Below, piece by piece: positions 51,468-57,683 of a stretch of 64,000 bases of DNA; within the stretch, counting starts at the first letter, position 1; every line of letters begins with the position of its first letter. The notes beneath the pieces are model-generated. The model searched no databases and was not told where the DNA came from. It saw only the letters and a list, made by a program, of their open reading frames with translations. Made by a program: the position numbers and the translations under genes. The stretch comes from Halobaculum marinum. Lineage in GTDB: Archaea; Halobacteriota; Halobacteria; Halobacteriales; Haloferacaceae. The DNA lies in NCBI RefSeq assembly GCF_029338555.1, contig NZ_CP119989.1, positions 2,480,001-2,544,000 on the forward strand, in the 5' to 3' direction.

Positions 51468-52175
51468 TCAGTCGTCGCTCTCGGCGACGCCCGCTTCCAG
51501 CGCCGCTGCCTCGGCCTCTGCGGCGGCCTCACGCTCTTCGGCCTTCTCCTCTTCTTCCTTCTTCGCCTTGATCTTCTTGAGCCGGAAGATTTCCTCGCGC
51601 TCTTGCTCCTCGAGCTTCTGCTCGATGTACTCTTTGTTCTCGTTGAGTTCGGGCAGGAGCTTGAACTCCAGCGCGTTGACGCGGCGCTTCGTCGTCTCGA
51701 TCTCTTCGAGCATCTTCTTCATCGCCGTCTCCACCTCGGCGGCGAGGATGATCGACTCGATCAGCTCCTCGTAGGCGTCCGCCGCCTCGTCGATGCGGGC
51801 GGAGGAGCCGAGCACGCCGTAGCCGCGCTCGTCGAGGTTCTTCTTCACCTTCGACGACTCGATCTGCGGGACGACCACGCCCATGATGTTCTTCGACTGG
51901 GTCGTGATCTCGGGGTGCTCTTTCAGCGCGGCTGCGGCGCCGCGGACGGCGACGTCGCCCTCCATCGCGCGAGCCTTGTTGATCTTCGTCTGGGCCGTCT
52001 CGTAGTCGGCCTCCAGCTGGTCGCGGACGTCCTGCGCCTGGTCGAGGATGTCCATGAACTCCATGATGAGGCCGTCGCGCTTCTGCTCGAGCGTGTCGTG
52101 GCCCCGCTCCGAGAGGTCGATGCGGTCCTCGATCTCCATGAGGTTCTTCCGGGTCGGCTTGACGTCCTCCGCCAT
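51468..52175 (-). CDS. atpD: A-type ATP synthase subunit D
   Basis: A 235-residue central-stalk subunit. The family start is visible: [36 protein letters not shown]. Long N- and C-terminal helices form the coiled-coil rotor that turns inside the A3B3 head. The C-terminal about 40 residues are a charged helix ending [13 protein letters not shown]. It is separated from atpB by 4 kb, and has its own TATA-like GATTAAC (52206-52212) about 34 bases upstream, overlapping the stop of the preceding gene. Confidence 0.94.
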
Positions 52176-52205
52176 AGTCTTGGAGGGAAGTTGCGGGGCG
52201 AGGGT

Positions 52206-52212
52206 GTTAATC
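52206..52212 (-). promoter_or_regulatory. TATA box of atpD
   Basis: Minus-strand GATTAAC centred 34 bases before the atpD ATG, overlapping the TAA of the upstream surface-protein gene. It would let atpD be expressed without its neighbours. Confidence 0.4.
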
Positions 52213-52968
52213 CTTGTTAGTCGCCCGCCGGCGAACCGCGAGCAGTACCGCACCCGCGAGCGCCGTGACCAACACTCCGGGGAGCGGTGTCGGGGCCGAT
52301 GTCGCTGTGCCGTCTGCCGAGTCACCGTCCGCGTCGGCCGCGGATGCTGCTGGGGCGAACGTCGCCGAGAACCCCTCAAGCGACGCCCCGCCCGACCACG
52401 CTGCAGCCCTGCCATCGACGGCGTCGGGCGTCGGGTTCGCCTCGTCGAACGTGTACCCCGTAGGCCCGCGAACCACGAACGCTCGGTCCGGCTCGAACCC
52501 GCTCGCGAACGGAGCGCCGACCGTCAGCCGGTCCCCTTCGACCACCGCGAGGTTCGTCCACGTCGCTGCGATTGTGACGACGCCGGTGGCCCCACCGTCG
52601 TCTGTCGATACGTGGACCGTCGCATTCCGAACAGCCATCGAACGACCCGTCCGCTCGCCAGCCTGCGACGCGACTCGGTCGATGCGCTCGGCGAACCTGC
52701 GCGAGACGTTCTCGCGGTCGTCGTCGACCGCCTCGAACGCACGTCGCTCGCCGTCGGACGACAGGTCGAACGTCAGCCGGAGCGCCACGGTCGCGTCACC
52801 TTGCTCGGTCACGTTCACGACGAACGCCTCCGTGGCGCCGGTCGTCAAGTCGGTCGACGCGGTCTCCGTCGCCGCGGCGGGACCGACCGCTGTCGTGGCT
52901 GCGACAGCCACCGTCAGCGCAAGCAGGAGACGAACTGTCCTGTTCGACCCACGGCTCGTTCCGACCAT
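52207..52968 (-). CDS. membrane-anchored surface protein (DUF7345-like)
   Basis: A 253-residue protein (ATG at 52968; GTG at 52971 possible). N-terminal Sec signal ([21 protein letters not shown]), an extracellular domain of about 170 residues, and a C-terminal single helix ([20 protein letters not shown]). The ectodomain has [26 protein letters not shown] and a [16 protein letters not shown] segment that align with the winged-helix-containing protein encoded at 55028-56182 (FQASFEQNKSERLDRFSGRIDGV; VDGDRVVAGDVFGSGF). The two are therefore paralogues of a haloarchaeal surface domain family. Function unknown. Confidence 0.8.
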
Positions 52969-53020
52969 CACCGCCGACCTCGACCGGCGTCAACTCGTCG
53001 GCTGGTCCGTCCCTGGTTGT

Positions 53021-54832
53021 TCATCGATCGTCCTCCTCGGCGTCATCCGCTTCTTCGTCCTCCTCCTCTTCCTCCTCTTCCTCTTCATCCTCTTCATCCT
53101 CCTCCTCCTCGTCTGCTTCCTCTTCTTCCTCCGCGTCGTCGGCCTCGTCTCTATCGTCGTCCGCTTCGTCGTCCGCGTCGTCAGCGTCGTCGTCCGCGTC
53201 CTCCGCGTCGTCAACGTCGTCTTCCTCCTCAGCACCCTCGCTGTCCTCGGCATCGTCCTCCACGTCGACGTCGGCGAGCGAGAGCCCACCAGCTGCCGAC
53301 TCGAACTCGAAGGCTGCCCGGAACTGCCCCTTCGTCACGACGACCTCGAGCTCGTCAGTTGCGTCGGTTGGGAACGTCAGCCGCCCGTCGGCGTCGGTCG
53401 TCCCGACGACACCGTCGTCCGCGACGACGGTCGCCCCGGAGACGGGCGACCCGTCGAACGTCACGCGGACGGTCGCGCTGCCGTTGGCGACGGTGGCGGT
53501 GGCGTCGAGCGACCCACCGAAGGCCGACTCGGCGGCGTCCGACCGGTCGCGGAACTCGTACTCCAGTTCGGCCTCCACGTCACCGTGCTCGGCTTCGACC
53601 TCCACCGAGTCGGCATCTGGGAGCGTTACCGTCAGCCGCCCGTCGGCATCCGTGGTGCCGACCGACTGGCCGTTCACCTCGACGGCGACGTCCGCCGCCG
53701 GGTCGCCGCCCGACAGCACCAGCAGCGTCACGGTCGCGTTCGGCGCGGGGGTACCGTCAGCGACGAGGATGGCGAGTTCGTCCTGCTCGTCCTCGTCGCG
53801 GTCCTCGCCCTCGTCGTCAGCATCGCCGCGGTCGTCGTCACCGTCGCCGTCGTCCACGTCATCCTCGTCTCGGTGTTCCGTCTCCTCCTCCAGTCGGTAG
53901 ACGACGCCAGACGACGCGTCGACGCGAACCTTCGCCTCGCCCGTCAGGTTCTGCGTGCCGCTGAGCGCGAACTCGAACTCGTAGGCCCCCTCGTACTCGC
54001 GGACTTTCGTCGCGGTGAGCGTCCACGACCCCTCGGGCGGAGACGCGAGCGCCGCACGAGCGGTGTCGAGCGCGTCCGCCTGCGAGACGGTGAAGTTCGT
54101 GTCGTCGTCGCGGGGGCGCTCGATCTCCCGCGAGCGCTCGCCGTCCTCGCCCTCCGCTTCGATCTGGAGCCCGTCGCCGGTCTCGATCCGCAGTTCACCG
54201 GTCGTCTCGCCGGTGAAGCGGCGCAGTAGTGCCGACGCACCGACGCCAGAGACGTTCTCGACGTCGCCAAGTGCGCCTGCGACGGCTTCCTCGCGGTACC
54301 CGGCGACGCGGAGGTCGAGCGCCGAAACGTTCTCGGCCCGCCGCTCTAGGCGAACGGCGGCCTCGGTCACGGACTCCGCGCGGGCGTTGAGCGTCGCGAT
54401 CCGTTGGCCGTACGCCGACGCGTCGATGTCACCGGATTCGTACGCCTCGGTGGCTGCACGGTAGTCTTCGGCGATGCTCGCCGCGCGCTCACGGAGCGTC
54501 GCCGCGCGCTCGGCGACGACGGCTGCCCGGACGGAGTCGTTCTCTGCGCGCTCGAACTCGTAGCGGAACGACCCCTCCGCGAACTCGCTCTCCACTTCGG
54601 TGTCGGTGACCGCGAGCACCGTCGAGAGTTGCCCCCCGACCGTGACGTTCACCGACTCGTTGGCGGTGTCGTTCTGCGTCGTCTGCTGCTGTACGGCTCC
54701 GTCGTCCGGCGCGGCCACGGCAGCCGCGTCGGCGCCGTCGGTCACCCCGGGAGACGCCACCGCCGCCGCGGGGACACTCCCCACGACGAGCAATAGCGCC
54801 AGGGCGACGGCGATCAGGTTCTTGGCGGTCAT
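53021..54832 (-). CDS. secreted protein with two Ig-like domains and a long acidic tail
   Basis: A 603-residue protein. Sec signal at the N-terminus (NLIAVALALLLVVGSVPAAAVA), helical N-terminal half rich in Glu/Ala (about 60-230), then a PepSY-like region (SQADALDTARAALAS, KVRVDASSGVVYRLE), followed by two Ig-like/carboxypeptidase-regulatory domains with matching endings (VGTTDADGRLTVTLPD and VGTTDADGRLTFPTD). The last about 100 residues are almost only Asp, Glu and Ala. No membrane anchor. Probably an extracellular, highly charged protein; the role is unknown. Confidence 0.82.
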   Translation of the reverse strand: MTAKNLIAVALALLLVVGSVPAAAVASPGVTDGADAAAVAAPDDGAVQQQTTQNDTANESVNVTVGGQLSTVLAVTDTEVESEFAEGSFRYEFERAENDSVRAAVVAERAATLRERAASIAEDYRAATEAYESGDIDASAYGQRIATLNARAESVTEAAVRLERRAENVSALDLRVAGYREEAVAGALGDVENVSGVGASALLRRFTGETTGELRIETGDGLQIEAEGEDGERSREIERPRDDDTNFTVSQADALDTARAALASPPEGSWTLTATKVREYEGAYEFEFALSGTQNLTGEAKVRVDASSGVVYRLEEETEHRDEDDVDDGDGDDDRGDADDEGEDRDEDEQDELAILVADGTPAPNATVTLLVLSGGDPAADVAVEVNGQSVGTTDADGRLTVTLPDADSVEVEAEHGDVEAELEYEFRDRSDAAESAFGGSLDATATVANGSATVRVTFDGSPVSGATVVADDGVVGTTDADGRLTFPTDATDELEVVVTKGQFRAAFEFESAAGGLSLADVDVEDDAEDSEGAEEEDDVDDAEDADDDADDADDEADDDRDEADDAEEEEEADEEEEDEEDEEEEEEEEEDEEADDAEEDDR

Positions 54833-54860
54833 CGTCGACCACACCACGCTCCCTCGACCC

Positions 54861-54867
54861 CATAAAC
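54861..54867 (-). promoter_or_regulatory. TATA box of the acidic-tail secreted protein gene
   Basis: Minus-strand GTTTATG centred 32 bases before the ATG at 54832. Confidence 0.45.
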
Positions 54868-54906
54868 TGGAATCACCTCCCCGACGACTCCCGTCGAATC
54901 CCGACC

Positions 54907-54954
54907 GTTCCCGGGGTCGAGCGGCTCGTTCCCGCCGGTTCCCGGTCGTTCCCG
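54907..54954. promoter_or_regulatory. four phased GTTCCCG boxes in a divergent promoter
   Basis: Copies at 54907-54913, 54928-54934, 54938-54944 and 54948-54954; start-to-start spacing is 21, 10 and 10 bases, so all face the same side of the helix. They lie between the TATA boxes of the leftward acidic-tail gene and the rightward winged-helix membrane protein gene. This is the layout of a cooperative operator, and the winged-helix protein is the obvious candidate binder. Confidence 0.5.
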
Positions 54955-54990
54955 CCGGGTGTCGCCGACGAGCGGATGGGAGCGACCGCG

Positions 54991-55000
54991 ATATTTTAGG
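54991..55000 (+). promoter_or_regulatory. TATA box of the winged-helix membrane protein gene
   Basis: ATATTTTAGG, centred about 32 bases before the ATG at 55028; the leader would be only a few bases. Confidence 0.45.
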
Positions 55001-55027
55001 CCACCTAGGGGGGTTGTCTGACCAGAG

Positions 55028-56182
55028 ATGGTCGGGGGACGGCGGACGGTCGCGCTCGTGCTCGCGGTGCTGTTGCTCACAGCGTCGCTGCCAGCCGCGG
55101 CAATCGGGGCTGCACAGACGGCCGACCCGGACGCCGACAACACGGTCACGCGGATCGAACTCGCGGCCGACGGGTCGGCCACGTGGATAGTCCGCGTGCG
55201 CACGCGATTGGAGACCGAGGCGGACGTCCAAGAGTTCGAGCGCTTCCAAGCGTCCTTCGAGCAGAACAAAAGCGAGCGCCTCGACCGGTTCAGCGGACGA
55301 ATCGACGGCGTCGTCCGGAACGCGGTCGACGCGACCGGCCGTGAGATGACAGCCGAGAACTTCTCGCAGTCCACGTCAATCCAGGAGCTTCCGCGTCGGT
55401 GGGGAGTCGTCACCTACCGGTTCCGGTGGCGTGGCTTCGCACGTGTCGACGGCGACCGCGTCGTTGCCGGCGACGTGTTCGGGAGCGGGTTCTACATCGA
55501 CGAGAGCGACAGCCTCGAAGTGGTCGCACCGCCGGGGTACGCGCTGCAGTCCGTCGCCCCCGACCCGGCCAGTCGAGACGGCAGGACCGTGACGTGGGTC
55601 GGACCCGAGAGCTTCGCAGACGGCCGGCCACTGGTGCGTGCCGCACCAAGCGCGACCCCGACCTCGTCGCTGGAGACGACCCCCGCCGACAGCGCCGGCG
55701 AGGAGAGCCGTCCGCTCGACCTCGCCACGGCCCCGTACCTCCTCGGGACGGTCGCCGTCGGAGCGGTCGCCGTCCTGGCGCTGCTGTTCACCCGTCGGCG
55801 CTCGGGGGCGCCCCACAGCGTCGCCGACACAGACCGCTCGCCGTCCGGTGGCGGTGCAGGTCCACCGCGAATTGGTGGTGGTGATAGCGACGCCGGCCCC
55901 ACGAGCGCGGACGGGACCGCCTTGACTTCCGCGACCACCGACGCTCGCACGCCGTCAGGCGAGGACACGCTCCTCACCGACGAGGACCGCGTGCTCGCGC
56001 TGTTGGAGGAGCACGGCGGGCGAGTCAAGCAGGCGACCGTCGGCGACCAGTTGGAGTGGTCGTCGTCCAAGACGTCGCGCGTCGTCGGGCGGATGGCGGA
56101 CGAGGGGACGGTCGAGAAACTCCGCATCGGTCGAGAGAACGTCCTCCAGACACCGGCGTCGGACGACGAAACAGAGCGGTAG
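55028..56182 (+). CDS. membrane-tethered winged-helix regulator with surface domain
   Basis: A 384-residue protein in three parts. An N-terminal Sec signal (TVALVLAVLLLTASLPAAAIG) precedes an extracellular domain (about 30-220) paralogous to the protein at 52207-52968. One transmembrane helix (LLGTVAVGAVAVLALLFTRRR, about 240-260) is followed by a disordered linker and a C-terminal winged helix of the DUF7343 type (about 315-380; DRVLALLEEHGGRVKQATVGDQLEWSSSKTSRVVGRM, visible as WSSSKTSRVVGRMADEG). This is a one-component, signal-across-membrane architecture. It is divergent from the acidic-tail gene and likely controls that promoter and its own. Confidence 0.83.
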   Translation: MVGGRRTVALVLAVLLLTASLPAAAIGAAQTADPDADNTVTRIELAADGSATWIVRVRTRLETEADVQEFERFQASFEQNKSERLDRFSGRIDGVVRNAVDATGREMTAENFSQSTSIQELPRRWGVVTYRFRWRGFARVDGDRVVAGDVFGSGFYIDESDSLEVVAPPGYALQSVAPDPASRDGRTVTWVGPESFADGRPLVRAAPSATPTSSLETTPADSAGEESRPLDLATAPYLLGTVAVGAVAVLALLFTRRRSGAPHSVADTDRSPSGGGAGPPRIGGGDSDAGPTSADGTALTSATTDARTPSGEDTLLTDEDRVLALLEEHGGRVKQATVGDQLEWSSSKTSRVVGRMADEGTVEKLRIGRENVLQTPASDDETER

Positions 56183-56252: not shown

Positions 56253-57683
56253 TTAGTCCGCGGAGACTTCCTCGGCCTCGTCGTCGGCGGCCGTGGGGTC
56301 CTCGCGGTAGTGCTCCTCGATGAGGTCCTCGTCGACGCGGTTGAGCTCCGTCTTCGGGAGCGTCGACAGCAGGTCCCACCCGAGCTCGATCGTCTCGTCG
56401 ATCGTGCGGTCGGTGTCGAACCCTTGCTCGACGAACTGCGTCTCGAACGCGTCCGCGAAGTCGAGGTACTTGTTGTCACGCTCGGACAGCGCCTCGCGAC
56501 CGACGATGTTCACGAGGTCGCGCAGGTCCTCACCCTCCGCGTACGCCGCGTACATCTGGTCGGACACGTCGGCGTGGTCGGCGCGGGTCAGGCCCTCGCC
56601 GATCCCGTCGTCCATCAGGCGCGACAGGCTGGGCAGCACGTTCACCGGCGGCTGGATACCCTGGCTGTGCAGCGGGCGGTCCATCATGATCTGCCCCTCC
56701 GTGATGTACCCCGTCAGGTCGGGGATCGGGTGCGTGTCGTCGTCGCCGGGCATCGTGAGGATCGGGATCTGCGTCACCGAGCCCTCGCGGTCCTTGAGGC
56801 GACCGGCGCGCTCGTACAGCTGCGCCAGGTCGGTGTACATGTACCCGGGGTAGCCACGCCGACCGGGCACCTCCTCGCGGGCCGCACCGATCTCACGGAG
56901 CGCCTCACAGTAGTTCGTCATGTCCGTCAGGACGACGAGCACGTGGTACCCCTTGTCGAACGCGAGGTACTCGGCGGTGGTGAGCGCGAGGCGCGGCGTG
57001 ACCGTCCGCTCGACTGCGGGGTCGTCCGCGAGGTTCATGAAGACGACCGAGCGCTCCAGCGCGCCCGTCCGCTCGAAGTCGTCCATGAACTCGTTGGCCT
57101 CCTCCTGCGTGATGCCCATCGCGCCGAAGATCACTGCGAACTCCGACTCGTCGTCGTCGCCCTCGCCCGCCTCCTCCGGCACGGTCGCCTGCCGGGCAAT
57201 CTGGAGTGCGAGGTCGTTGTGCGGCAGGCCAGAGCCCGAGAAGATCGGGAGCTTCTGGCCGCGCACGAGCGTGTTCATCCCGTCGATGGCCGAGACACCC
57301 GTCTGGATGAAGTCCTCGGGGTACTCGCGGCTGTACGGGTTGATCGCGGCGCCGACGATGTCGCGGCGCTCGTCCGGAACGATCTCCGGGCCGCCGTCGA
57401 TCGGGTTACCGGAGCCGTCGAGCACGCGACCGAGCAGATCCTCGGTCACGGGCATCTTCAGCGTCTCGCCCAGGAACCGGACCGAGGCGTTGCGGTCGAT
57501 GCCGGTGGTGCCCTCGAACACCTGGATGGCGACGAGGCCCTCCTCGGATTCGAGGACCTGCCCGCGCTTCGTCTCGCCGCTCGGCGTCTCGATCTCGACG
57601 ATCTCGTCGTAGCCGATTGGCTCGTCGACCTCGGCGAACACCAGCGGGCCGCTGACTTCCGTGATGGTTTGATACTCTTTCAT
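56253..57683 (-). CDS. atpB: A-type ATP synthase subunit B
   Basis: A 476-residue regulatory, non-catalytic subunit of the A3B3 head. It starts [27 protein letters not shown]. The Walker A is absent, as in all B subunits ([16 protein letters not shown] instead). Other conserved parts are [20 protein letters not shown], the P(G)[19 protein letters not shown] (visible as [17 protein letters not shown]) and [17 protein letters not shown]. It follows atpA by 3 bases. Its 3' end lies 70 bases from the convergent winged-helix gene. Confidence 0.97.

Follow-up and report, generated by a model that had tools for sequence, protein, structure and literature searches.

Between the ATP synthase genes atpB and atpD of Halobaculum marinum there are three genes, which we refer to as P0003, P0001 and P0002 and which are thus the occupants of the atpB-atpD insertion site in the stretch analysed here (64,000 nucleotides, positions 2,480,001-2,544,000 of contig C1, from a genome of 3.5 Mb; hereafter, the window). 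Our comparative analysis suggests that the three genes probably constitute a self-contained, mobile surface-signalling module, in which P0003, a protein predicted to be tethered to the membrane, would bind an array of phased repeats and control the expression of P0001, a putatively exported protein. The trio is a module of recurrent content, order and orientation that is mostly found away from ATP synthase, and the phased array, which was missed in the first-pass annotation of the sequence, is the strongest functional clue.

Recurrence of the three-gene module

Twenty of the 243 genomes of the order, H. marinum included, have close homologues of P0001 (E below 1e-60); the 19 other genomes provide 20 P0001 loci, as one genome (G002) contributes an additional locus, where the match to P0001 is weaker. 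A P0003 homologue divergently adjoins the P0001 homologue in 17 of these 20 loci, with an extra reading frame between the two in L109, and in 10 of the 20 there is a P0002 homologue behind P0001, in the same orientation, which bears out the earlier proposal that the three genes form a unit. Since the P0003 gene is located opposite to the atp genes and points away from P0001, the trio is not a single operon. At L102, L103 and L106, which share one genus code, the P0001 homologue has no neighbouring P0003 homologue; three GTTT/GTTC units, 10 bp apart, can be seen by eye upstream of these P0001-like genes, whose neighbourhood is conserved.

Three of the 20 loci (L101, L105 and L110) are located between atpB and atpD, and no atp match is present in the surrounding 16 kb for 14 of the 17 divergent cassettes from other genomes; the flanking genes differ among the remaining cassettes, a pattern that fits a module that moves. 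Further atp-site copies come from the survey of atpD loci presented below: a full cassette between atpB and atpD in Halobellus rarus (L027), P0003 and P0001 homologues in the same interval of Halorubrum salipaludis (L084), a full cassette beside atpD in Haloparvum sedimenti (L064, with no atpB in the stretch examined), and a short winged helix-turn-helix (wHTH) match retained at L078. The orientation of the cassette relative to atpD is identical in all atp-site copies; the best tree places the window copy apart from the other six, as repeated independent arrivals at this site would, but a single clade is not rejected by the approximately unbiased (AU) test (p 0.15).

A second set of 20 loci, 18 of them obtained from good P0002 or P0003 matches and two from other P0003 paralogues of the H. 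marinum genome (L130 and L131), has revealed a second arrangement, which we refer to as type B, the divergent one being type A: a P0003 homologue, a short DUF7096-like gene and a P0002 homologue, all on one strand, in nine loci (L114-L119, L123, L127 and L132; in L123 one additional gene is located between the members). The first two of these genes are also present at L130. Profile comparison relates the short type-B protein to P0001 (probability 99.4%, E 1.2e-21), its Pfam match to DUF7096 being under the cut-off or missing. The tree splits type B from type A with support 97/97 (the long-branched L131 is labelled B there), and the alignment gives the recognition helices as mostly WTxAKTS(Q/K) in type B and WSxSKTSR in type A, with WSAARTSQ in the paralogue at L130. 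In several type-B loci (L114-L118), the trio is located directly before the genes of argininosuccinate synthase and lyase.

It is improbable that the three genes are linked cargo with no common function, recombined together into tolerant sites: many unrelated genes do enter the atpB-atpD interval (our survey; PMC7755889, in its accessible part), P0002 is frequently absent and P0001 stands alone in one genus, but order and orientation are constant at many sites with unrelated flanks, the same three families recur in a second arrangement (the profile match at E 1.2e-21), and the common promoter region is under constraint.

The phased repeat array

The intergenic region between P0001 and P0003 has a length of 195 bp and contains two blocks of three repeat units, phased at one DNA turn and located just upstream of the TATA-like motif of P0001. 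We have compared 21 oriented divergent regions (the window, 17 P0001 loci, L027, L064 and L084; those of L109, L110 and L113, longer than 330 bp, were trimmed to 260 bp), counting the 6-mers that recur with at most one mismatch, with 60 dinucleotide shuffles as the control. Repeats at lag 10 number 226, versus 27.9±8.5 in the shuffles; the counts for lags 20 and 30 are 136 and 80, an elevation is likewise seen for lags 31, 40 and 41, and all other lags from 5 to 44 are within z ±1.8. The lag-10 density is 51.2 per kb; in 20,000 random draws of 21 regions each, from a background of 540 other intergenic regions (100-330 bp), it is never attained, the maximum being 32.9. A score of 10 for lags 10 and 20 combined is reached by 16 of the 21 cassettes, versus 29 of 543 background regions. 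The repeat word varies (GTTTGCA, GTTTCG, GTTCT, GTTCCCG) while the spacing is constant, and TTGCAG is present in 12 of the 21 regions, where 0.8 would be expected.

The array is also found in type B, with a TTAATC-like word that differs from those of type A: in 10 regions upstream of the DUF7096-like gene, lag-10 repeats number 58, the other lags giving 7.9±6.4. Its location upstream of this gene, and not of the wHTH gene, points to the DUF7096 gene as the constant target.

Regarding the geometry of the promoter, an automatic scan of the 21 regions places a TATA-like motif at 22-29 nt from the start of P0001 in 14 of them and the first array core at 51-56 nt from that start in 10. For the window, only the second block, at 96 nt, was caught automatically, and inspection by eye locates the first unit at 54 nt. 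The position of the array, directly upstream of the TATA-like motif, is activator-like and suggests activation. The promoter and terminator scan, which relies on bacterial patterns, was of no use for this locus.

Pattern counts across genomes suggest an array dedicated to this module, and not to a wide regulon: the strict pattern (TTGCR twice, then TTGC, at period 10) occurs at three places in 16 cassette genomes, all within cassettes (reversed control, four), and a looser pattern at 26 places, eight of them, by coordinates, in the cassettes of eight genomes (reversed control, 30). In the H. marinum genome, three GTTNC units at period 10 match once, at the second block of the array, the reversed control also matching once.

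In the mechanism that we propose, P0003 would be a membrane protein whose ectodomain faces outwards, and its winged helices would align along a single side of the DNA, each on one 10-bp unit; bound to the array, P0003 would switch P0001, probably together with P0002, and its own gene; P0001 would be exported, and either P0001, P0002 or a ligand of the envelope might feed back on the P0003 ectodomain.

Several observations weigh against this mechanism or narrow it. Taken singly, 17 of the 21 regions exceed all 30 of their own shuffles and the remaining four do not, and the z-scores overstate independence because the regions share descent. The contrast between type A and type B in helix and word is essentially one evolutionary split, and a P0002 homologue is missing beside P0001 in 10 of the 20 loci. 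The third paralogue of the H. marinum genome (L131) has no array, and type B shows no lag-10 excess upstream of the wHTH gene (17 versus 19.6±9.8, 11 regions); autoregulation is therefore not general, and the same two findings rule out the array as a trait of all DUF7345-DUF7343 regulators.

A phase of about 10 bp in TT steps is a general signal for DNA bending and histone placement, and the repeats could accordingly reflect bending, the placement of archaeal histones or the action of another regulator on the P0001 promoter, instead of being the operator of the wHTH protein. The array does stay with P0001-like genes that have no adjoining wHTH gene (L102, L103 and L106; in type B, L120, L121 and L124-L126). 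We nevertheless regard this explanation as unlikely, as whole words such as TTGCAG are repeated, beyond TT steps, the two wHTH clades have different words, and no such phase is found in the 540 other intergenic regions.

The coordinates of the array, the genes and the other features of the locus are listed in Table 1.

Table 1. Features of the atpB-atpD interval and its flanks (window coordinates).
Feature	Position	Strand	Details
atpD	51468-52175	-	Insertion flank; 95% identity to Halobaculum AtpD
atpD promoter-like element	52201-52219	-	TTAA at 52207-52210; common to empty Halobaculum sites
P0002	52207-52968	-	DUF7345 ectodomain protein with C-terminal hydrophobic anchor (Pfam, sequence)
P0001	53021-54832	-	Predicted exported DUF7096 protein: three-helix part, PepSY-like part, two Ig/macroglobulin-like domains, acidic tail
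TATA-like motif of P0001	54861-54866	-	TTTATG on the - strand; consensus match only
Array block 1	54887-54913	.	ACTCCCG, AATCCCG, GTTCCCG; spacing 10 bp (sequence)
Array block 2	54928-54954	.	GTTCCCG three times; spacing 10 bp; 41 bp from block 1 (sequence)
TATA-like motif of P0003	54991-54998	+	ATATTTTA (from sequence)
P0003	55028-56182	+	DUF7345 ectodomain, predicted membrane helix, DUF7343 MarR-like winged helix
P0003 DUF7345 ectodomain	55139-55648	+	Residues 38-207; confident in model
P0003 predicted membrane helix	55730-55801	+	Residues 235-258 in model
P0003 DUF7343 winged helix	55979-56155	+	Residues 318-376; confident in model
atpB	56253-57683	-	Insertion flank

Structure of the three proteins

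P0003 matches two Pfam families, DUF7345 in its ectodomain (E 2.6e-32, 112.2 bits against a cut-off of 27.5) and DUF7343 in its winged helix (E 1.6e-26, 92.3 bits against 27.6), both domains thus lying in one protein. Between them, the hydrophobic helix of residues 235-258, followed by RRR, is a predicted membrane segment; the linker of the model is of low confidence. For the winged helix, the fold matches are of the MarR type and related types (Z 9 to 10, about 60-75 residues). A sequence search of the PDB with P0003 gives no match, no NCBIfam family matches P0001, P0002 or P0003 over its cut-off, and neither histidine kinase nor receiver domains are found in the three proteins with Pfam and NCBIfam, so that they do not fall under the two-component systems.

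The combination of ectodomain and winged helix had been considered unusual; P0003-like proteins are present in 242 of the 243 genomes at E 0.001 or better, and the architecture is therefore ordinary for haloarchaea. The two domains stay fused in orthologues (30-row alignment; Pfam on three orthologues), their separation having been named beforehand as refuting. The description of two paralogous ectodomain proteins, one with a winged helix, has held: P0002 also contains DUF7345 (E 3.2e-21) and shares 35% identity with the P0003 ectodomain (E 2.2e-18), DUF7343 being found in P0003.

In a Foldseek search with the P0003 model, the top 16 matches are all chains of the Fenna-Matthews-Olson (FMO) protein (best E 1.5e-7) and fall on the ectodomain; VIA-align gives Z of about 9 and an rmsd of about 6 over 132-141 residues, and a profile search gives a weak match (E 0.2). 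Kinship with the bacteriochlorophyll-binding FMO was rejected, as the superposition is poor (rmsd 13.8, TM 0.17), and the likeness is kept as a lead only.

P0001 matches DUF7096 (E 4e-12) and Ig-like families in Pfam, and its sequence, with a hydrophobic stretch at the N-terminus and a long Asp/Glu tail, agrees with the earlier prediction of a secreted protein with an acidic tail. The model of residues 1-505 comprises a three-helix part, a PepSY-like part that matches YpeB and two Ig/macroglobulin-like domains. The modelled residues 440-505 resemble domain MG1 of Escherichia coli alpha-2-macroglobulin (Z 9.8, rmsd 2.0, 65 aligned), residues 350-429 complement C3b (Z 9.3, rmsd 2.6, 80 aligned) and residues 202-424 the PepSY domains of YpeB (Z 9.0, rmsd 4.4, 119 aligned), all of these being single-domain fold matches only. 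Foldseek finds no match to the P0001 model below E 0.001 and Pfam no PepSY match; the Pfam match to MG4 (E 0.0084, 16.8 bits) stays under the cut-off of 24.7, and P0001 is not assigned to the alpha-2-macroglobulin family.

A bolder form of the proposal, possible if doubtful, is that membrane-tethered MarR-like winged helices tile the ladder of 10-bp repeats and pull the promoter towards the membrane, the ectodomain at the same time sensing the exported macroglobulin/PepSY-like product, which would report proteolysis or envelope damage; this loop, travelling as one module, would be a new type of archaeal one-component system.

The atpB-atpD insertion site

Our survey covers the best 80 of 306 atpD loci, from named genomes, with genes from a codon-based caller and interval labels from clusters with Pfam-scanned members. 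Both atpB and atpD are present in 69 loci, and 11 have no atpB in the stretch; among the 69 intervals, 32 are empty, 28 contain phototrophy genes (bat, bop, crtY and blh in varying sets), two contain phototrophy and cassette genes, and seven are longer, with other or no called genes. All nine Haloferax loci have a bat-like gene alone in the interval. Insertion at this site is thus recurrent, Haloferax included, as had been suggested; the hotspot is not a new discovery, as bop and accessory genes between the ATP synthase B and D genes, in sets that differ between strains, are described in the accessible part of PMC7755889. The H. marinum genome has three rhodopsin-family genes, none of them in the window.

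Within Halobaculum, the interval is empty in H. gomorrense (L006) and in L007 and holds another gene in L005; the AtpD and AtpB proteins of the window share 95-97% identity with those of Halobaculum species. The gene of H. litoreum (L005:8653-9966) is metallophosphoesterase/5'-nucleotidase-like, with a relative in the interval of L022. In two Halolamina species (L045 and L062), a common block of other genes precedes atpD, with no atpB within 10 kb upstream. Two intervals combine both kinds of insertion: in L084 (3723-9827) the cassette and bacteriorhodopsin-pathway genes follow the order wHTH-P0001-bat-bop, and in L027 (3500-9964) a full cassette is followed by crtY-blh.

Of 78 loci, 69 have a TTAA/TTAT motif between -45 and -25 relative to atpD; in a control stretch located more distantly upstream, the motif occurs in one of the 78. 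In the window, this promoter-like element is intact, being the same as at the empty H. gomorrense site up to the last codons of P0002, and it also provides these last codons and the stop. The ATP synthase cluster, described earlier as split by a 4-kb cassette, is therefore split physically, whereas its expression is probably uninterrupted. The location of the site, just before a probably independent atpD promoter, offers a simple reason for the repeated landings between atpB and atpD, and in our preferred explanation the site is probably just a tolerant landing place for the cassette.

A role of the cassette in regulating or monitoring ATP synthase or light-driven energy conversion is very improbable. 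The cassette occupies the atp site in the window, L101, L105, L110, L027 and L084, and adjoins atpD in L064; its orientation is the same throughout, and it abuts bat-bop in L084 and crtY-blh in L027. Against such a role, the 16-kb stretch lacks any atp match for 14 of 17 divergent cassettes from other genomes, and a promoter-like element of its own precedes atpD in 69 of the 78 loci, the atpD of Haloquadratum walsbyi being described as monocistronic in the accessible part of PMC5496347. The link to ATP synthase or phototrophy was therefore set aside as the main interpretation.

Comparison with known systems

In the bacterial membrane-tethered regulators ToxR and CadC, an N-terminal cytoplasmic winged helix of the OmpR/PhoB type is followed by a membrane helix and an outside domain, with direct repeats at the target promoter. 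P0003 resembles them in its predicted outside domain, single predicted membrane helix and predicted inside winged helix, and in the repeats at the promoter, to which its binding is putative; it departs from their layout in its reversed order (ectodomain N-terminal, winged helix C-terminal), its MarR-like instead of OmpR-like winged helix (Pfam and fold) and its archaeal promoter, and we do not place it among them. ArnR and ArnR1 of Sulfolobus are archaeal membrane-bound one-component regulators, as P0003 is predicted to be, but the HTH of ArnR is located in the N-terminal region, according to the accessible part of PMC13286277, and that of P0003 at the C-terminus, behind the DUF7345 ectodomain.

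P0003 also resembles the haloarchaeal proteins of Pfam that combine DUF7345 and DUF7343 (PF24036 and PF24034), with both domains over the curated cut-offs and in the same order; this family has no recorded function, and only part of it falls into the DUF7096-linked clades that have a phased array. The names DUF7343, DUF7345 and DUF7096 were not found in the literature searched, and no such module was found in that on membrane one-component regulators and phased repeats, including the accessible parts of PMC13286277 and PMC6085418, most subscription papers being outside both searches. The bop, bat, crtY and blh insertions of PMC7755889 share the atpB-atpD site and the strain-variable set, the cargo here being a signalling cassette; in the part of that paper available, the only extra hypothetical gene named beside bop is that of Halorubrum sp. 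WN019, and L084 is H. salipaludis strain WN019.

To the published hotspot, our analysis adds the probably independent atpD promoter as an explanation. For the widespread haloarchaeal DUF7345-DUF7343 proteins, the phased array offers a first testable DNA target and, with it, a way into how archaea read the cell surface without histidine kinases.

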